A DNA stretch of 55,438 bases, taken from assembly GCA_025055575.1 (NCBI GenBank), contig JANWWP010000062.1:1-55438 (forward strand), given 5' to 3'. Under the pieces are notes generated by a model. The model ran no database searches. It was not told where the DNA came from and saw only the letters and a list, made by a program, of their open reading frames with translations. The position numbers and the translations under genes are program-made. The number at the start of each line of letters is the position of its first letter. Position 1 is the stretch's first letter. Of this stretch, positions 588-31,779 are shown piece by piece. Source of the DNA: Flavobacteriales bacterium. Lineage in GTDB: Bacteria; Bacteroidota; Bacteroidia; CAIKAF01.

Positions 588-1562
588 ATGAAAGCCGCCC
601 GACTGAATGCCATTCACTCTCCTTTGCAGTTGGAAGATGTGCCCCTGCCGCCCATGGATCCGCCGCACAGGGTGCGGGTGAAGCTGCAGGCGGCCGCGCT
701 GAACCACCGGGATGTGTGGATTCAAAAAGGACAATACGCTGCCATCGTGACGCCTGTGACCTTGGGCAGCGACGGCTGCGGCGTACGCGAAGACAACGGG
801 GAACCTGTCATTATCAATCCCGGCAGCCACTGGGGGCCGGATGAGCGGGTCCAGAGTCTGGCCTATACCATATTGGGAATGCCGGATGACGGCACTTTGG
901 CCGAGTGTGTATCGGTGCCGGCCGATCGTCTGCATCCCAAGCCGCCCCACCTGAGCGCTGAAGAGGCGGCGGCTTTGCCTCTGGCCGGGCTCACAGCCTG
1001 GAGAGCGCTCTGCGTGCGCGGGGCAGCCCGTCCCGGAGATCGGGTTTTTGTGAACGGCATCGGGGGCGGCGTGGCCTGGTTTTGTATGCAATTTGCCCTG
1101 GCCTTGGGTTGCCAGGTGTATGTGAGTTCTTCTTCGGAGGAGAAACTGGCGGAAGCCCGCGCAGCCGGAGCCCATGGCGCGGTGAACTACCGCCAGCCCG
1201 GCATTTTTAAAGAACTCGCAGCCCACAACGAGCTGTTTGACGTGATTGTGGACTCGGCCGGCGGCGAACCTTTTGCCCAGTTGCTATTCATTGCAGCGCC
1301 CGGCGCCCGAATTGTGACCTACGGCGGCACTCTGGGAAAAATTACCCAGCTGAGTCCTCAGATCATCTTTTGGAAACAACTGTCCATTCTGGGGTCTACC
1401 ATGGGCAGCGACGCCGATTTTGCGGCGATGTTGGATTTTGTAAACCGTCATCAAATCCGGCCCCGCATCGCCCGGATTTTTCCGTTGGAGGAAGCCCAAG
1501 CCGCCATGGATTTCCTGGCTTACGGAGCGCAAATCGGCAAGGTGGTGGTGCGCATCGCTTAA
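588..1562 (+). CDS. Medium-chain dehydrogenase/reductase (quinone oxidoreductase / zinc-type alcohol dehydrogenase-like)
   Basis: 324 residues. The N-terminal GroES-like fold shows AAALNHRDVWIQKG and LGSDGCGV; the Rossmann domain has GIGGGVAWFCMQFALALG around residues 155-172, followed by a basic/serine stretch (SSSSEEK) suited to NADP(H). This pattern is known from MDR enzymes that reduce quinones or enones with NADPH. The cluster of structural-zinc cysteines of classical alcohol dehydrogenases is not obvious, so substrate and metal content are open. The gene stands alone; its TAA shares the palindrome TTAA with the TAA of the convergent gene to its right, a 4-base overlap of stop codons. 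Confidence 0.8.
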   Translation: MKAARLNAIHSPLQLEDVPLPPMDPPHRVRVKLQAAALNHRDVWIQKGQYAAIVTPVTLGSDGCGVREDNGEPVIINPGSHWGPDERVQSLAYTILGMPDDGTLAECVSVPADRLHPKPPHLSAEEAAALPLAGLTAWRALCVRGAARPGDRVFVNGIGGGVAWFCMQFALALGCQVYVSSSSEEKLAEARAAGAHGAVNYRQPGIFKELAAHNELFDVIVDSAGGEPFAQLLFIAAPGARIVTYGGTLGKITQLSPQIIFWKQLSILGSTMGSDADFAAMLDFVNRHQIRPRIARIFPLEEAQAAMDFLAYGAQIGKVVVRIA

Positions 1563-4500
1563 GGCTTTCTAAAGATCCAGAGTCGGTTGGAGGTACGGCG
1601 CTGCTGGTGCTCTTCCAAAATTTCCAGGTTGTGGCGCACACAAAAATTTTCCACATCCGAATTCTTCAAAAAGTGCAAACCGGCAGCGGCTTTGTTAAAC
1701 ACTGTGAGGCGGGTGGAAAAAAATTCGGACAGACGCGTGAGGCCATGCCCGCTCGGCATATCTGAAAGTCCATCCCGCAGGAAAAGGAGAGCGCCGGAGG
1801 GAAGCCTTTCCGTCCATCGGTCCATCAGCGGCCACTGGGCTTCGGGCGGCAAATAGTGTAATACATCCGAAACGATAAGGGCCTCACAGGGCTGCGGTTC
1901 CACATGCAGGATGTTGGCATGTTCAAAAACCACTTTGTCTTGGAGGGGACTCCGCCGCGAACGGGCCAAGCGGATTTTTTCCTCATCCCAGTCAAAACCG
2001 GTGTACGACCTGGAAGGAAAATAACAGGTGAGCATGTGGCCAATGAGACCGAGTCCACAGCCCAATTCCACAATATGGGCGTCCGAAGGGATGCGGCGGT
2101 GGAAGGACTCATAGTAATTTTCCAAGCGCAACTTTAAACGGATATAAGGGACAAGCCAGGGATTAATATACAAGAAACGGTGGCGCACCCAATCTGCGGC
2201 CACAGGCCCGCCCGCCCAGGCCCGGGCGACCTCCTCATAGCGGCGCCTGAGCGTGGCGGCCATGCGGTGGGCTAGCCGGCGGGCGGCCCCTGGTTCGGTA
2301 TCCGGTTCGGGAACAACAGGGGGGCCCACTTCCATAATCAAATGCTGACGGCTACCCCAGAATGCGCCTTTGGGCAACAGGTGTCCGGTGCCCACAAACA
2401 ACACCGGCATCAAAGGTTTTCCGGTACTTAAAGCCAGGTCGAACAACCCGCTGTGGAATCGGTGGATTTTGAAATCCGGAGAGCGGGTACCTTCCGGAAA
2501 CAAGGCAAAACTGCGGCCGGCTTGGAGCTCTTTAATAAGGCGCGGCTTATACTTCTCATGACCCAGGCTCACGTTGATGTAGCCGCACAGCCGGCTCACC
2601 GGGCCGAAAACAGGATGGTTGTAGATACTGTTTTTTGTCCCAATGATCAGCCGGGGGCTGAGGGAAAATATCAACGCGGTGTCGATAAACGACTGGTGGT
2701 TGGCAAAGACCAAATGGGGTCTGCGAAAATCCGCCTCCCTCCAGCACACATAGCGCCGACGACCCAAGAAGACGAGGTTTATATACAGACGGGCCCACAT
2801 CCATATATAGTGCCTGAAGAAAGACTGAATCCATTTTTTACGACCCACCAAGAGCAGACTCACCGGCAGTGCCAACGCCACGGCTCCGGCAAATGGCAGC
2901 AAGACACCAAGCCATACCACCAGGGTGCTCAAGAGGTTTTTAAGGGTGTGGAGCTTGTAGCCTTTTTCTAAAGGCTTTTTCACCAACCAGCCAAAGATCG
3001 CCGGCGTGAGAAAAGCGGAAAACAACCCCACCGCACCCAATCCGGCCACACTTAAAAGGCCTACAGAATTTAAGGCGGGATGGCGGCTGAACATCAGACC
3101 TCCGGTGGCCAAAAGCGTGGTGGCAGCAGAGAAAAAAACCGCCCTGGCTGTGGCGGCATCCGGCCTTTCGCCGGCACTGCAAGCCCGCATCTCCCGATGG
3201 AGGTAAAACACCGAATAATCCACTCCAAGACCAAAGATGAAACTGCATACAATCAACGAAACAAAGTTGAAACTGAGCCCTCCCAAGTGCATTAGGGCCC
3301 CCACCCACACCCAGGAAAGGGCCAAGGGCAGCAAAGCCAGAATGGCGAGCTCGATGCGGCCAAAGCCTAAAAGCAAAAGAACGACAACCACCAACAGGGA
3401 GCCGCCCACCACCTGCCCAAAGTCCTTTTCTAAAAATTCAAAACCACTTTGCGTGAAGCTTTTTCGGTCCACAATAGTGAGGTCCGCGGACCCACGTTCT
3501 AATTGTTTTTTCACGTCGTCGTAGCGGCTTTCCGGAACCCTCAGGACCCCTACAAAACGGGGCGGGGCTCCGGACGGGGCACACACAAAAAGATCGCGGA
3601 GGCCGCGGGGCAAAATCCCCATCAAATCGGATGCCGAGGGCGCTTGACGTTCGGAGGCGGACGGCTGAAAAAAAAACGAAGCAAAAGCTTCGGCACGGAA
3701 GCCCTCTTTCTCAGCACGTTTTTTAAGAATTTCATACGCCACACGACGCCGGTCGGGAGAAAATACGGAATCCCAGACGATCGCGCTTCGCCGTCTGAGT
3801 TCCGGATCGGGAAACAAACGGGTGTAACTGAGCCAGGATCCGCCGGGTTCCAAGGCTTGGGATTCGGCAAGCATCGTCCCCACCCGGGCTGTTTCATCAA
3901 ACCATTTTTTCTCGTCTTCATCGGAAGAAACCAGCAGAATATTTCTTAAAGAAACTCCGGCCGCTTCGTCCAATATGGCCTGATCGGCTGCCAGATCGGG
4001 CGGGGTGTAAGATAATTTTTCCACGTCGCTGTCCAAAGGTGGCGTCCGGTAGAAGTACAAGGCGCACACAGTGATGAAAACCAAAAAAATACGCAGAACA
4101 AAAAGAGCTTTCGGAGGAACCTTCAGACCCCAATGTGCCGAAGTCACTTTTTTCTGTCCTTCGAGGAAATGAGGAGCCCAAAGGAGTGCGGCCAGACAGG
4201 CCCCCAGAATGCCCCCGGCGGCCATCCAGCCAAAAGCCCGTGTGACGGGGGATCGGGTGAAGGTGAGCACGGCAAAGGACGCCACGGTGGTGAGCATACT
4301 GAGGAGCATGGGGGGGGCCACTTTCTTTAGAATCTCTTCCGGCGTCGCGCCCGCTGCGCGGCTCACCAAAAGGTGTAAAGCATAATCCACGCTGATGCCC
4401 ACAAACACCGCTGCAAGTCCGAGACTGAGGGCCGGGACATGGGGGGTGGCCAAAGCCGCGGCCAAGCTTGCGCCGGCGGCGCCACCGGCCAAGGTCACAA

Positions 4501-5377
4501 GAAGGGTCGGTAAAAAATGCCACGAGCGAAAGCCAAAAGCCAAAAGAAGAAGGATGCCCAGCAAAGTCAGGCCCATGGTAATCTGCACATCTTTTTTGAT
4601 GCGTTCCGCATTCTCGGCCGCCATCAAAGGCGCCCCAAAAAACCCAAACCGGATGCCCTGGGCTTGAAGCCGCGCCTTCACACGGTCCATGGCTTCCATG
4701 AGGGCCGCCCCGTGCCGCACGTCTTCAGCAGGCCGGCGACTCACAAGAGCGCCCAGCAAGCGGCGGCCGCTTGCGTCGGTAAGCACACCTTCGGGGGTGT
4801 ATGCATAGGTACTGCCACTTAAAGTTTCCAGCTTTTGAAACCAGAGCGCCGAAAGGCCCAAAGGATCCTCTGTCAGGTCTTTTTGTAAAAACCGCGCACC
4901 GGGAGATAGCAACAAATGAAAGATCCGATCCAACTGGGCCTCCCAGGCATCAGTGCGGACCCATTTTTCCCCGGCCCTACAAATTTCATCTGGGGTAAGA
5001 ATCCAAGGCAGCCACTGGAGGACTCTCTTTCTTAAGGAATCCAGTTCTGCCTCACTTTGGCGCACCTCCAGCCGTAGCCATAAAGCCGAATCCTCCCGCG
5101 CCCAGGCCGCCTCCACCGCGGACGCCAAATAGGATGGATCGGGCGGTGTATCCCCTGCCGCTTCAGCAAAAAACAGGATGCGCTTCTGCAGGGGATGATG
5201 CGCCAAAATCTCCCGCACCACTTTGCCAGATTCTGGACCCACGAGCAAGGAGGATATGTCTGTCTGAACTTTAACTTGAGAAAGGCCCCATAATCCCAAG
5301 GCAAAAAGCCCAAAAAGAGTACCCCAAAAGGCGATCTTTCTGGCTTGAAATATTTTGAAAATCTTAATAAGAATCAT
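1559..5377 (-). CDS. Trifunctional fusion: MMPL/RND-type exporter + lysophospholipid-type acyltransferase + SAM methyltransferase
   Basis: 1272 residues from the ATG at 5377; a TTG at 5392 would add five. Residues ~1-790 look like an RND/MMPL permease: an N-terminal membrane helix, a periplasmic loop, and two blocks of hydrophobic helices around 255-400 and 640-780, with a short hydrophobic stretch after them. Residues ~850-1060 carry acyltransferase motifs NHQSFID (NHx4D, ~890) and FPEGTRS (~962). Residues ~1080-1272 are a class I methyltransferase with VELGCGLGLIG near 1104 and FDWDEEK just after it. The inference is one membrane machine that acylates, methylates and exports a lipid-like product, as the separate proteins are proposed to do in aryl polyene and flexirubin clusters. 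No carrier or ketosynthase gene adjoins it. I recall the same three-domain order in other Bacteroidota. Confidence 0.85.
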   Translation of the reverse strand: MILIKIFKIFQARKIAFWGTLFGLFALGLWGLSQVKVQTDISSLLVGPESGKVVREILAHHPLQKRILFFAEAAGDTPPDPSYLASAVEAAWAREDSALWLRLEVRQSEAELDSLRKRVLQWLPWILTPDEICRAGEKWVRTDAWEAQLDRIFHLLLSPGARFLQKDLTEDPLGLSALWFQKLETLSGSTYAYTPEGVLTDASGRRLLGALVSRRPAEDVRHGAALMEAMDRVKARLQAQGIRFGFFGAPLMAAENAERIKKDVQITMGLTLLGILLLLAFGFRSWHFLPTLLVTLAGGAAGASLAAALATPHVPALSLGLAAVFVGISVDYALHLLVSRAAGATPEEILKKVAPPMLLSMLTTVASFAVLTFTRSPVTRAFGWMAAGGILGACLAALLWAPHFLEGQKKVTSAHWGLKVPPKALFVLRIFLVFITVCALYFYRTPPLDSDVEKLSYTPPDLAADQAILDEAAGVSLRNILLVSSDEDEKKWFDETARVGTMLAESQALEPGGSWLSYTRLFPDPELRRRSAIVWDSVFSPDRRRVAYEILKKRAEKEGFRAEAFASFFFQPSASERQAPSASDLMGILPRGLRDLFVCAPSGAPPRFVGVLRVPESRYDDVKKQLERGSADLTIVDRKSFTQSGFEFLEKDFGQVVGGSLLVVVVLLLLGFGRIELAILALLPLALSWVWVGALMHLGGLSFNFVSLIVCSFIFGLGVDYSVFYLHREMRACSAGERPDAATARAVFFSAATTLLATGGLMFSRHPALNSVGLLSVAGLGAVGLFSAFLTPAIFGWLVKKPLEKGYKLHTLKNLLSTLVVWLGVLLPFAGAVALALPVSLLLVGRKKWIQSFFRHYIWMWARLYINLVFLGRRRYVCWREADFRRPHLVFANHQSFIDTALIFSLSPRLIIGTKNSIYNHPVFGPVSRLCGYINVSLGHEKYKPRLIKELQAGRSFALFPEGTRSPDFKIHRFHSGLFDLALSTGKPLMPVLFVGTGHLLPKGAFWGSRQHLIMEVGPPVVPEPDTEPGAARRLAHRMAATLRRRYEEVARAWAGGPVAADWVRHRFLYINPWLVPYIRLKLRLENYYESFHRRIPSDAHIVELGCGLGLIGHMLTCYFPSRSYTGFDWDEEKIRLARSRRSPLQDKVVFEHANILHVEPQPCEALIVSDVLHYLPPEAQWPLMDRWTERLPSGALLFLRDGLSDMPSGHGLTRLSEFFSTRLTVFNKAAAGLHFLKNSDVENFCVRHNLEILEEHQQRRTSNRLWIFRKP

Positions 5378-5729
5378 TTTCCAAAAAAACAACCTTCTTC
5401 ATCCCATTCAATCCCTATCCAAAATGCCGCAAAATAATAGATATTACAATGGTTGAAACGTTCAATTAATCATTTAAACACATTACAGATTCCCTTTCAA
5501 TCGTTTCTCTCTGCCAAAAAAATACTAACCATTTTGGATAACATCCAGATTTCCTCAAGAGTTTCATTTCATTTTTAATGTATTTGCAAAATGGCGGGCC
5601 TGAAACTTCATTCAAACTCATAAAGCAGTAATTTAGAAGGCCTGGTAAGGAAATTGAAAGCCGGTACCCACCGGCTTTTTTTTTGAACTCTTTATAGGTT
5701 TATTTTGTGTTTTAAATATCGAAACCGTA
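5378..5729. other. AT-rich divergent intergenic region (352 bases)
   Basis: No open frame of credible length was seen. It lies between the 5' ends of the exporter fusion (minus) and the secreted IgGFc/SprB protein (plus). It contains a strong plus-strand terminator at 5657-5684 and near-consensus -7 boxes: CAAAATAA at 5430-5437 (minus) and TTATTTTG at 5700-5707 (plus, 22 bases before the ATG). What the terminator ends is unclear. Confidence 0.6.
5657..5684 (+). terminator. Rho-independent terminator with no gene in front of it
   Basis: Perfect 9-bp stem AAAGCCGGT / ACCGGCTTT (5657-5665 and 5670-5678), 4-base loop ACCC, followed by a T run to 5684. It points rightward, but the nearest plus-strand gene on its left ends at 1562 and the whole interval between is minus-strand coding or AT-rich spacer. 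It lies 45 bases before the start of the secreted protein gene, so it may close a small RNA or attenuate a leader. Confidence 0.75.
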
Positions 5730-8270
5730 ATGAGAAAGCCTCTGCGATTTTTTATTTATTCATTCGTAATTTTTTCATTTCCTTGTCTTCTTTATGCCCA
5801 GAAAGATACCCTTTTTTGGTTTGTAGCGCCCGAGGCCACCTCGGCCCATGGTGATGCGCCGATTTACTTCCGTTTGTCTTCTTTCGGAGGCTCTGCCGAC
5901 GTGACCATTGACCAACCCGCCAACCCCGGATTCACCCCGATCAGTGTCACCATCCCTCCGAATTCCAGCCAAACCGTGGACCTCACGGCCTTTTTGGCCA
6001 CCACGGAAAATGCGCCTCCGGATCAGGTGTTGAACTATGGCTACCGTATTCGCAGCACAGCCATTATTTCAGCGTATTACGAAGTGTTTACCTCCTGCCA
6101 ATGCAATCCTGAAATTTATGCTCTAAAGGGAAAAAATGCCTTAGGCACCGAATTCCGAATTCCTTTTAATGACGTCTGGGCTAATGGCAGTTATTCTCCT
6201 CCGGCGCTTTCGGCTATTGACATTGTGGCCACGGAAGACAATACCCAAGTGACCATCCTTCCGTCCAAAGACGTGGTGGGCCACCCTGCGGGCGTTCCTT
6301 ACACCATTACCCTGAACAAAGGTCAAACATACTCGGCTGCAGCCGCAGGCACTGGGGCTGCTGATCAGTTAGGAGGCAGCATCGTTACCTCCAACAAACC
6401 CATTGCCGTCACCATTAAGGATGACAGCATGAGTTTTCAGGGGTGTCGCGACCTATGCGGCGACCAGCTCATCCCTCTGCCTCTGATTGGCCGGGAATAT
6501 GTCGTGGTACGCGGTTCCCTGAACGTAACAGACCGGGTGTGGATTTTGGCCACCCAGAACAATACACAGGTTTCCATCAACGGGACTGCCGTGGCCACTC
6601 TGAATGCCAATCAGTCTTATATGCACCAGTTGACCAGCCCGGCTGTGTCCTGTTATATTCTCACAAACAACCCTGTGTATGTACTCCACTACACGGGATT
6701 CGGCTGCGAATTGGGATCGGCTATTGTGCCGCCTGTAAAATGCACGGGCACGCAGGAAGTGAGCGTCACACGATCCACTTCGGAGTATTTTGGTTTGATG
6801 TTGTTCACACAGGCGGGCAATGAAAGCAGTTTTTTGCTGAATGGGAATGCCGGCTTAATCACTGCCAGTCAGTTTTCGCCTGTGCCTGGGACGGGTGGGG
6901 CCTGGGTGGCCGCACTCATTCCCTTTGGCACCACCGAAGTGCCTGTGGGGACGCCCTCCGTCGTGGCCAATACCAGCGGCCTTTTTCACATGGGCATTGT
7001 CAACGGTGGGGCAAGTTCTGGATGCCGGTATGGCTTTTTTTCCGACTTCAGTGGGGTTTCGTTCAACCTGAACGCCGACCAGACAGTCAGCTGCCCTGGG
7101 GCTGACGATGGCCAGGCCAGCGTGGTCGTATTGGGCGGGGTGCCGCCCTATTCCTACCAGTGGAGCACCGGCGACACCACCTCTATTGTGAGTGGGCTTC
7201 CCACAGGGACCTATACGGTTGTGGTATCGGATGCGGCTGGGTGTAGCGACAGCCTTTCCATCCAGATTCCGGAGCCGCCCCCCATGGCCTTTATCACGCA
7301 AACGATTCAAAATGTCACGTGCCACGGAGGGTCTGACGGTGCCGTATTCACCAGCCCCGGCGGTGGCACGCAACCTTATACTATCATCTGGAACACAGGA
7401 GCTCAGACGCAGAACTTGCAAAACCTGACAGCCGGAACTTACACGGCCATCTTCACCGATGCCAACAATTGCGACACGCTCACCCTTTCCGCCACGGTCA
7501 CCGAACCCCCGCCGATTAATCCTGTAGCCACCGCTTCGCCGGCCCAGATTTGTTATGGCAGCACAGCCACGTTGCAAGCCAATGGCAATTTCTCAGTGCA
7601 ATGGTCTCCGTCCACAGGGCTCAGCAGCACCAGCGGCAACAGCGTCACAGCGCAGCCGGATCAAACCACCACCTACACAGCCACCGTCACCGATTCCGCA
7701 GGCTGCCAGGAAAGCGCCGCTGTCACGGTGAACGTGTTTCATTTTCTGGCAGATTTGGATACGGTACAGGCGAATCCTCAGTGTTTTGGAAAAGTTCAGT
7801 TCAACGCCCTTTTAAAATTCCCCAACCGCTTAGCCAGTGCCGATTGGCAATTCGGTGACGGAAATTCCGGATCCGGCATTCCGACGGAACACATGTACCA
7901 ACTTGACGGCATTGTGAATGTAACCGTCACTTTTACCGATACGTTGGGCTGCGATACCACCGTGACGCTGGCCGTTCAGGTGAAAGCCAACTCTACGCAG
8001 ACACTGACGAATATTCCCAACATTCTTACGCCCGATGGCGATAATCTCAATGACGTATTAAAATTGAATCCCGACTTCGTGGAATGCAATCCTTTCACCC
8101 TGACCATCTTTAACCGCTGGGGCAATATTGTCTTTGAAAGCCGCAACAACGACCCGCCTTTTGAAGGAAAAAACCAACAGGGCCAATGGTTAAGTCCTGG
8201 TGTTTATTTCTATTATTTGAAATCGGAAAAGCAGGAACTTTCAGGTCATATTAGTATCGTACGTCCATAA
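5730..8270 (+). CDS. Secreted T9SS-type protein: IgGFc-binding-like domain, SprB repeats, gliding-motility-associated C-terminal domain
   Basis: 846 residues. Signal peptide at residues 1-23 (hydrophobic core ending LLYAQ). Residues ~30-440 resemble the IgGFc-binding N-terminal domain, with repeated DVWANGSYSPPALSAIDIVA- and SNKPIAVTIKDDS-type segments. Two SprB repeats follow (~453-517 and ~527-595; each begins with Cys and contains PPYSYQWSTG or QPYTIIWNTG, then TGTYTV or AGTYTA). Then come an Ig-like domain (~605-668), a PKD-like domain (~673-752, DWQFGDGNSG) and a C-terminal domain (~758-846) starting NILTPDGDNLNDVL and ending in FYYLKSEKQELSGHISIVRP. That last domain is the CHU_C-type sorting signal for type IX secretion. 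The protein is expected on the surface or released, possibly as an adhesin. SDR gene follows after 3 bases. Confidence 0.9.
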   Translation: MRKPLRFFIYSFVIFSFPCLLYAQKDTLFWFVAPEATSAHGDAPIYFRLSSFGGSADVTIDQPANPGFTPISVTIPPNSSQTVDLTAFLATTENAPPDQVLNYGYRIRSTAIISAYYEVFTSCQCNPEIYALKGKNALGTEFRIPFNDVWANGSYSPPALSAIDIVATEDNTQVTILPSKDVVGHPAGVPYTITLNKGQTYSAAAAGTGAADQLGGSIVTSNKPIAVTIKDDSMSFQGCRDLCGDQLIPLPLIGREYVVVRGSLNVTDRVWILATQNNTQVSINGTAVATLNANQSYMHQLTSPAVSCYILTNNPVYVLHYTGFGCELGSAIVPPVKCTGTQEVSVTRSTSEYFGLMLFTQAGNESSFLLNGNAGLITASQFSPVPGTGGAWVAALIPFGTTEVPVGTPSVVANTSGLFHMGIVNGGASSGCRYGFFSDFSGVSFNLNADQTVSCPGADDGQASVVVLGGVPPYSYQWSTGDTTSIVSGLPTGTYTVVVSDAAGCSDSLSIQIPEPPPMAFITQTIQNVTCHGGSDGAVFTSPGGGTQPYTIIWNTGAQTQNLQNLTAGTYTAIFTDANNCDTLTLSATVTEPPPINPVATASPAQICYGSTATLQANGNFSVQWSPSTGLSSTSGNSVTAQPDQTTTYTATVTDSAGCQESAAVTVNVFHFLADLDTVQANPQCFGKVQFNALLKFPNRLASADWQFGDGNSGSGIPTEHMYQLDGIVNVTVTFTDTLGCDTTVTLAVQVKANSTQTLTNIPNILTPDGDNLNDVLKLNPDFVECNPFTLTIFNRWGNIVFESRNNDPPFEGKNQQGQWLSPGVYFYYLKSEKQELSGHISIVRP

Positions 8271-29298: not shown

Positions 29299-31779
29299 TT
29301 ATTCTTTAACGATAATCCGGCGCACACGAAGGTTTATTCCGGTAAGAACTTCGTAAGGTATAGTACCCAAGAGGCGCCCCATTTCCTCCGGACCCCAACC
29401 GGGATGAAAGACAGCCGCCGTGTCACCGGGCTGAACCTGTAATTCGGTGACATCGCACAACGTCATATCCATACATATTCTACCCACGGTGGGAGCCCGC
29501 CCGTCAGAAAACCGAAACGACCAGACCCCGCGGCCCAGACGACGTGAAAAACCATCGGCATAGCCCAAACCTAAAACAGCTATTTTTCTCTCTCTGTCGG
29601 CCACTCCCTCCAGCCCATATCCCACGGGTTCTCCGGGAGGCACAAGCTTCACCGCCAATACTGTGGTATACCAGGAAAATGTTCCGCGTAAATCCAAGCC
29701 GGCCTGACCTTCACCATAGCCATAAAATCCTATACCTAAACGCACCATATCCAAAGCCATTTCAGGAAAGCGAAAAGCGGCCGCGCTGTTGGCAATATGG
29801 GCCAGCACACCCTGCCCGAAGGCTTGTTTCGCCTGCTGGACCCAGGGTAAAAATCTTTCAAATTGTTTCCTTGTAAAATTTTCCATGGCTGGGTCGTCCG
29901 CGCCGGACAAGTGAGAAAAGATCGACCTGACGTGAAAAAATTTTTGAGCCGCTTCCACCATTTGGGGCCATACTTGGGACATGGTATCGTGGGGAAAGCC
30001 CAGCCTGTGCATTCCAGTATCTACTTCAAAATGTGCAGGCACTTTCTCCGCACCCAAATCTCTCAATGCCAAAACCCATTCTTGCATATACTCCGCGCTG
30101 TGAAGCACAGGTTCCAAACGGTATTCCAGGGCAGTGGGAATAAATGCCGGCGGCACATGCATCACCATCACAGGCAGTTGCAGACCGCGCCGCCTCAATT
30201 CCACCCCTTCGTCCGGATAGGCCACAGCCACATAATCGGCCGCCACCTGACGAATGGCAAAAGCCATGCCTTCTCCACTGCCATATGCGGCCGCCTTTAA
30301 CATCAGCATGATACGGGCTCTTTCCTTTAGGTACACTCGGTATTGATGCACGTTGTGACGCAGGGCATCTGCAGAAATTTCTACCCATGTTTGTTGGGTC
30401 TTCCGGCTCAATAGCCCTATCACACGTTCCAGAGCGTATTTGCGGGCACCTTTAAATAAAATTGTTTCATCATGAAAATTGAACTCTGCCAATCTGTCGA
30501 TCAGCTCTTCTGTTGTTTTTAAGCATATAAATCCCGGATTACCCTGAACATGCTCAAGCCATCCGGCACCCACTGTAATAATACGCTGGATGTTGAGGGG
30601 CCGACGCATTTCTTCCAGCACTTTTTTCCAATAGGCCCAGTCTTGCTTGATATCATCAAAATCGGTGATGACGGCTGTTTTGGGGCCTAGGCCTGCCACT
30701 TCGGCCAGCTTCCCTAAGGCAATTTGAAATGATTCCGGGTCCGAGCTGTAGGTATCATTAATTAAGATTGTATTGCGCAGTCCTTCGTCCACACTCAGGC
30801 GCATAGGCAATGGATACCATTGCGCCGGAAGGGCCTCCATATGACGCACAGGCACCCCGGAAAAAACCAAAAATGCTAACACATGCAAGGCATTTTCGAT
30901 GTTGTATTCCTCAGAAAAGGGAAGTATGATGCCTCCTTCGTCCCAGACAATTTCGGTCCTGTTGGAAGACACCTTTTTTATCTTCGGGCGCCAGACACCC
31001 TGCGCTCCCCATGACCACATGTGTATGCCCCGCTCCCGGCAAAAGGCTTCTACATATTCTCCGGGAAAGGAACGATCATTTCTGAAGACTAAATATTTAC
31101 AATTTCGGAATAGAATGAGTTTTTCTTGAAGTTTATGAAGATCCCCTTCAAAGTGGGCGCTGTGGGCACTGCCCAGATTGGTAAAAATTCCATGTGTCGG
31201 CTGGATAATAGCTTCCAATTTTCCCATCTCGCCCGGTTTGGAAATGCCCGCTTCAAACAAGCCGAAATCATGCCCGGCATCTAACTGCCATACTGAGATA
31301 GGAACCCCCAGTTGAGAATTATAACTCAGAGGACTGCGGCACACTTTTTTTCCTAAGGACAATAAGGCCCGTGCCAGCCATTCCTTTACAATGGTTTTTC
31401 CATTACTGCCCGTGATGGCCACGACATTTTTTTCCGGAAATCTTCTTCTTTGCCAGGCGGCGAGCTTCTGCAACGCCTCTAAGACATTTGGAACCACCAC
31501 ATAACTTTTTTGTTGCCACTCCGGTTTTACCTTGTATTGATCCGAAACCACCACGGCAGGCACTCCGGCTTCAAATGCCGCAGTCACAAAATCTTCACCA
31601 TGTCTGGAAGGCCCTTTAATGGCCCAGAACACGGTGGAAGGCCCGTCCCAAATTTGACGTGTGTCAAATACAAGACGGGGTTTCTGTGTCCAGGCAACGT
31701 CCGGACCTTGAAGTTGGCCCCGCACCACATGGGCTATGTGAGACAAAGTATATGACTCCCGGACTTCTGCCTTTTCCAT
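29299..31779 (-). CDS. Bifunctional MurF ligase / alanine racemase
   Basis: 826 residues. The MurF part (to ~455) has the Mur ligase P-loop ITGSNGKTIVKEW near 125, LGVPISVWQLDAGHDFGLFEAGISKPGEM and NDTYSSDPESFQIAL. The alanine racemase part (~465-826) has the PLP lysine in MLKAAAYGSGEG near 493, MHRLGFP, NSAAAFRF, RLGIGFYGYGEG, LGLGYADGFSRRLG and GRICMDMTLCDV. The fusion makes D-alanine and adds D-Ala-D-Ala to UDP-MurNAc-tripeptide; it is typical of Bacteroidota. Its ATG overlaps the stop of the M28 peptidase gene (TGATG), so translation is coupled. Confidence 0.95.
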   Translation of the reverse strand: MEKAEVRESYTLSHIAHVVRGQLQGPDVAWTQKPRLVFDTRQIWDGPSTVFWAIKGPSRHGEDFVTAAFEAGVPAVVVSDQYKVKPEWQQKSYVVVPNVLEALQKLAAWQRRRFPEKNVVAITGSNGKTIVKEWLARALLSLGKKVCRSPLSYNSQLGVPISVWQLDAGHDFGLFEAGISKPGEMGKLEAIIQPTHGIFTNLGSAHSAHFEGDLHKLQEKLILFRNCKYLVFRNDRSFPGEYVEAFCRERGIHMWSWGAQGVWRPKIKKVSSNRTEIVWDEGGIILPFSEEYNIENALHVLAFLVFSGVPVRHMEALPAQWYPLPMRLSVDEGLRNTILINDTYSSDPESFQIALGKLAEVAGLGPKTAVITDFDDIKQDWAYWKKVLEEMRRPLNIQRIITVGAGWLEHVQGNPGFICLKTTEELIDRLAEFNFHDETILFKGARKYALERVIGLLSRKTQQTWVEISADALRHNVHQYRVYLKERARIMLMLKAAAYGSGEGMAFAIRQVAADYVAVAYPDEGVELRRRGLQLPVMVMHVPPAFIPTALEYRLEPVLHSAEYMQEWVLALRDLGAEKVPAHFEVDTGMHRLGFPHDTMSQVWPQMVEAAQKFFHVRSIFSHLSGADDPAMENFTRKQFERFLPWVQQAKQAFGQGVLAHIANSAAAFRFPEMALDMVRLGIGFYGYGEGQAGLDLRGTFSWYTTVLAVKLVPPGEPVGYGLEGVADRERKIAVLGLGYADGFSRRLGRGVWSFRFSDGRAPTVGRICMDMTLCDVTELQVQPGDTAAVFHPGWGPEEMGRLLGTIPYEVLTGINLRVRRIIVKE

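Follow-up and report, generated by a model that had tools for sequence, protein, structure and literature searches.

The question raised by this locus was what a single protein combining an exporter, an acyltransferase and a methyltransferase would act on, and why it stood alone. The window, which is the whole stretch of DNA analysed (55,438 nucleotides of a contig from a Flavobacteriales bacterium), contained no pathway genes beside the fusion gene, which was neither inside nor adjoining a polyene cluster. The gene (1559 to 5377, minus strand) was a single uninterrupted frame of 1272 residues plus stop from an ATG start; an alternative TTG at 5392, 15 bases upstream, would give 1277 residues. 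Read on the plus strand, the interval was closed by many stops. Promoter and terminator scans around the gene gave nothing better than shuffles. Its divergent neighbour (5730 to 8270, plus strand) encoded an 846-residue surface protein with IgGFc-binding, SprB repeat, PKD and type IX secretion C-terminal domains. Elsewhere in the window (29299 to 31779, minus strand), an 826-residue protein joined a Mur ligase-like domain to an alanine racemase, possibly a cell-wall enzyme fusion.

The permease occupied residues about 1-800 (2978 to 5377; all features of the protein are on the minus strand) in two halves, as delimited by Pfam MMPL in two stretches (best 228-398), hydropathy, the alignment and a match to ApeM of Escherichia coli. 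The first half carried GISVDYALH and the second GLGVDYSVF, with D331-Y332 and D720-Y721 at the transmembrane sites where RND proteins typically have their proton relays. Hydropathy gave the segments expected of an RND permease and then a hydrophobic linker ahead of the acyltransferase (2867 to 2953; residues about 809-837), where an AlphaFold2 model covering residues 816-1272 (mean pLDDT 80, pTM 0.64) had two long helices (model residues 3-27 and 32-54). The PlsC-type acyltransferase domain (Pfam PF01553, residues 886-994, E 1.2e-15; 2396 to 2722) contained NHQSFID (2681 to 2701; residues 893-899) and EGTR (2483 to 2494; residues 962-965, within FPEGTR, 960-965), and its best PDB relative, by sequence and by fold, was the PlsC structure 5kym. 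The class I SAM-dependent methyltransferase domain (Methyltransf_25, residues 1102-1192, E 2.9e-7; 1802 to 2074) contained GCGLG (2048 to 2062; residues 1106-1110), followed downstream by an acidic loop, GFDWDEEKI, and by SDVLHYL; conserved residues and a fold search, in which the terminal part of the model matched class I methyltransferases, agreed with the assignment. NHx4D, EGTR and GCGxG were all intact in the window protein, and the domain identities and motifs that the earlier note had read from the DNA were borne out by Pfam, motif positions and fold search.

A frame break or assembly join between the domains, which the earlier note had named as a result that would go against it, was ruled out by full-length homologues in one frame in independent genomes. 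The first search found a match in 12 genomes, counting that of the window. The same-genus genome G001 had a full-length copy (49% identity to the window protein), nine relatives besides this genus-mate had matches of at least 1100 residues in a single open frame, and the G023 copy was cut off by a contig end. Key catalytic positions were invariant or nearly so in the alignment of 12 sequences, the exceptions being L024, where bases are masked, and G018, where NHx4D has E in place of D. In the tree, a very long stem (3.09) set the window protein and the same-genus copy apart. A scan of the contigs of the same genome with the single fusion sequence gave a distant permease match only, since this protein has diverged too far to be caught by peptide patterns. 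Viral contigs gave one weak match, restricted to residues 1028-1176.

The occurrence of the fusion across Bacteroidota pointed to a pathway, that of the yellow-orange polyene lipid pigments. In a draw of 395 genomes of the phylum, with the fusion and the polyene chain-length factor (CLF) each called at E ≤ 1e-50, the fusion was called in 33 genomes spanning 16 genera (these include G172 and G400, which had the permease half only, with a stop inside). The CLF was present in 32 of those 33 genomes versus 2 of the 362 without the fusion (Fisher p 1e-43, which is overstated since shared ancestry is ignored), and the two genes were at most 30 kb apart in 28 of 32 pairs. Among the window's own genome and its relatives, the CLF accompanied the fusion in 11 of 12. 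It was not detected in G056, which has the fusion, or in G400, which has a fusion-like match.

In Persicobacter pPP6 the homologue lay inside a complete polyene cluster, in the order aromatic ammonia-lyase, FabG, ketosynthases, carrier proteins, CLF, deacetylase, LolA, DUF2062 glycosyltransferase (GT), fusion, FAD oxidoreductase, C45 peptidase and AMP-ligase. L022, L023 and L024 had the same order (ACP, ketosynthase, CLF, deacetylase, LolA, GT, fusion). These placements and the co-occurrence with the CLF upheld the link to aryl polyene and flexirubin clusters that the earlier note had drawn. In Persicobacter, ApeJ was split between an acyltransferase gene and a GT gene, and a stand-alone ApeD was not found in the cluster, which fits with ApeD being the fused domain. 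The copies in the window, G001, G006, G018 and G056 had no polyene neighbours, and that in G002 kept the FAD oxidoreductase as its sole cluster neighbour.

The rest of an aryl-polyene/flexirubin-like gene set was found in the window's own genome (2.4 Mb, 84 contigs, 99.8% complete), spread over about ten loci and including the core genes (ketosynthase, CLF, ACP, dehydratase, LolA and GT). Contig C22 had a KS1-like gene (64% to Persicobacter), an ACP and a lipid-A-type acyltransferase; C26 had a ketosynthase-like gene; C79 had an ACP, KS2 and CLF at its right end, and also an FAD oxidoreductase; C51 had the end of the CLF and a deacetylase, and continues C79. An ApeI-like dehydratase and a GT were on C59, a LolA-like gene (25%) on C48, a tyrosine-ammonia-lyase-like gene (50% to the Persicobacter cluster lyase) on C23, a C45 peptidase on C83, and pieces of an AMP-ligase at the ends of C8 and C2. 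The LolA-like gene, at 25%, and the small proteins were the weakest of these assignments. The CLF gene was split at a contig boundary (L044:19213-19932 at the right end of C79, and L056:8-472 at the left end of C51); the two contigs overlapped by exactly 141 bases and the frame was open across the join. The left end of the window matched no other contig by end overlap.

The CLF and the fusion were on different contigs in G001, G002, G006 and G018 as well. Dispersal is thus usual in the lineage of the window, in assemblies whose fragmentation cannot prove loci unlinked, and the fusion gene is alone in the window because the pathway genes are scattered in the genus. The earlier note's description of a gene standing alone without ketosynthase, dehydratase or carrier genes, and so with a substrate unknown, was correct for this contig but not for the genome, which had polyene-type ketosynthases, CLF, carrier proteins, ApeI-like dehydratase, and lyase-like, LolA-like and GT genes at other loci. 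Beside these genes, C22 had a GH3-family protein (L045:2037-3560; plant-type acyl-amido-synthetase family) between the KS1/acyltransferase genes and a FabF-like ketosynthase. The genome had two aromatic amino acid lyases (L046:4401-5891 and L107), that on C23 with 50% and that on C26 with 35-36% identity to the lyase of the Persicobacter polyene cluster; the C26 lyase adjoined a 2OG-Fe(II) oxygenase and a histidyl-tRNA-synthetase-like protein.

The methyltransferase domain had a separate history. In the METHYLTRANSFERASE results, from a midpoint-rooted tree of 41 proteins, computed on the region ahead of the methyltransferase only, all 24 of the 41 sequences without GCGxG fell in one clade (100/100), so that one loss of the motif is enough. 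These 24 homologues (L069-L092; from two families in the phylum draw, f46 and f22) had the first half of the domain still recognisable (HMM positions about 13-102) and were about 50 residues shorter, and one subgroup of the clade had FPEAER or similar instead of FPEGTR in the acyltransferase. Loss of active-site residues in homologues, which the earlier note had also named as a result that would go against it, was therefore found for GCGxG, but the acyltransferase residues were kept almost everywhere and the window protein keeps GCGxG. Judged from these sequences, methylation is separable from acylation and export. The hand-over from acylation and methylation to export that the earlier note had suggested is plausible from acylation to export, but the decay of the methyltransferase in one clade argues against methylation as an obligatory step.

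We consider it probable that the gene provides anchoring and export in a pigment-lipid pathway of the aryl-polyene/flexirubin type. At the cytoplasmic face the PlsC-like domain, as the equivalent of ApeD, would attach either the completed acyl chain of the polyene or a fatty acyl group to a lipid anchor. The RND/MMPL part, as the equivalent of ApeM, would use proton flux to extract the anchored lipid from the inner membrane and would deliver it to a LolA-like carrier bound for the outer membrane. For the methyltransferase domain an auxiliary tailoring role is likely, distinct from head-group methylation by ApeB and dispensable in one clade. We infer the substrate, the transport direction, the order of steps and the methyl acceptor; the mechanism is based on the study of ApeD and ApeM in E. 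coli (PMC8253772), and its transfer to the fused protein would hold by analogy. The substrate could have shifted in the window and same-genus copies, given their very long branch, and the product of this genome, in which ApeB was not detected, may differ from those described.

Two other readings of the whole gene were weighed against the pigment-lipid pathway. The protein could acylate and methylate an ordinary phospholipid or ornithine-type lipid and flip or export it, as part of a general remodelling of membrane lipids independent of polyenes. The best sequence matches are in line with this, being PlsC and lyso-ornithine-lipid acyltransferases for the acyltransferase and HpnN for the permease, as are the lack of an operon with polyene genes here and the fusion in G056 with no CLF detected; against it stand the near-perfect co-occurrence with the CLF, the frequent placement in polyene clusters, the specific homology to ApeM and ApeD, and the polyene genes in the same genome. 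We regard it as rather unlikely, and independence from polyenes is unlikely given the co-occurrence and the gene set of the genome itself. A pathway decaying in the genus, with the fused protein a remnant deprived of its original role, would agree with the scattered genes, the fast-evolving sequence and the failure to find ApeB in this genome, but the full-length frame is open, both genus members keep all catalytic residues although only 49% identical, and the CLF frame is open across its contig join; this reading is very improbable.

The remaining alternative concerned the methyltransferase within the pigment-lipid pathway. If the fused domain replaced ApeB as the head-group methyltransferase, the protein would be a complete module for tailoring, anchoring and export, and the window's own genome, its genus-mate G001 and the G002 and G006 genomes of the same family, all with an intact fused domain, had no ApeB homologue found. 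The wider count was the opposite of this prediction: of the 15 genomes searched in which the fused domain is intact, 10 had ApeB, as against 2 (absent in 22) of the 24 in which it is decayed, so that ApeB and the fused methyltransferase go together instead of replacing each other. Replacement is accordingly an improbable explanation. Equating the fused domain with ApeB itself was rejected, as it matched ApeB only remotely (E 2e-6), Persicobacter had a separate ApeB orthologue (48% identity), and ApeB coexisted with it in most intact genomes; the earlier note's view of it as the usual methyltransferase of such clusters did not hold, since ApeB is a separate gene elsewhere. As a tentative reading, possible but short of probable, the fused domain may be an undescribed tailoring enzyme tethered to the transporter. 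It would methylate the polyene in its lipid-anchored state, or else the anchor, immediately ahead of export, and ApeB would modify the aromatic head independently; the fused domain may have been lost once and become vestigial in a large clade. A systematic difference of one methyl would then be predicted between the pigment lipids of the intact and vestigial groups.

Anchoring and outer-membrane transport of aryl polyenes and flexirubins are described as unresolved (PMC8253772, PMC3992019). A single chain with acyltransferase and exporter links the two steps physically, and makes a model of acylation followed by export directly testable. The one-time decay of the methyltransferase supplies natural variants for probing the role of that domain. 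Dispersed polyene pathways, as in this genus, are missed by searches limited to gene clusters.

HpnN and MmpL-type transporters have lipid cargo. The permease has the RND fold family in common with them (5khn, 6wu0), but matched over a partial stretch only (about 650-800), and HpnN is without fused enzymes; assignment as a hopanoid transporter was rejected by the NCBIfam HpnN models (113 bits with a cut-off of 752, and 54 with a cut-off of 1100). Profiles of the three fusion parts were searched against the aryl polyene cluster of E. coli CFT073 (L106). The permease part (HMM of residues 1-830) matched the RND transporter ApeM (E 1.8e-51) and the acyltransferase part the lysophospholipid acyltransferase ApeD (E 4.4e-24), whereas the methyltransferase part, matching ApeB no better than E 2e-6, had no close counterpart in the cluster. 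ApeM and ApeD come from separate genes in E. coli and form one chain in the window. In the model put forward by the E. coli study, anchoring is assigned to ApeD and ApeJ, and transport to ApeM together with Lol-like proteins; partial pigment remains after deletion of apeD (PMC8253772). Flexirubin is located in the outer membrane (PMC3992019). Among the flxP-flxU genes of Chitinophaga pinensis are one for a phospholipid/glycerol acyltransferase and one for a predicted exporter, next to genes for LolA, a deacetylase and a GT; they were compared by description only, from a paper that lists them by annotation and describes no fusion (PMC3992019).

The closest named comparison was the homologue of Aureispira anguillae pAUEa (WP_264793640.1), which matches the window protein from end to end at about 27-28% identity, its three domains following in identical order, and which has the RefSeq name 'trifunctional MMPL family transporter/lysophospholipid acyltransferase/class I SAM-dependent methyltransferase'. 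A literature search returned no paper using this product name, and no experimental or biochemical study of any fused homologue. The earlier note had treated the fusion as unusual, with separate genes as the usual state; separate genes are the E. coli arrangement, and the fusion is the common form in polyene-carrying Bacteroidota. The window protein has the named architecture, a single chain that runs from the permease through the PlsC acyltransferase to the class I methyltransferase; it differs from the RefSeq-named homologue in its strong divergence and in having the usual partners (FAD oxidoreductase, C45 peptidase and AMP-ligase) elsewhere in the genome. It is a diverged and dispersed member of a kind that already has a name.
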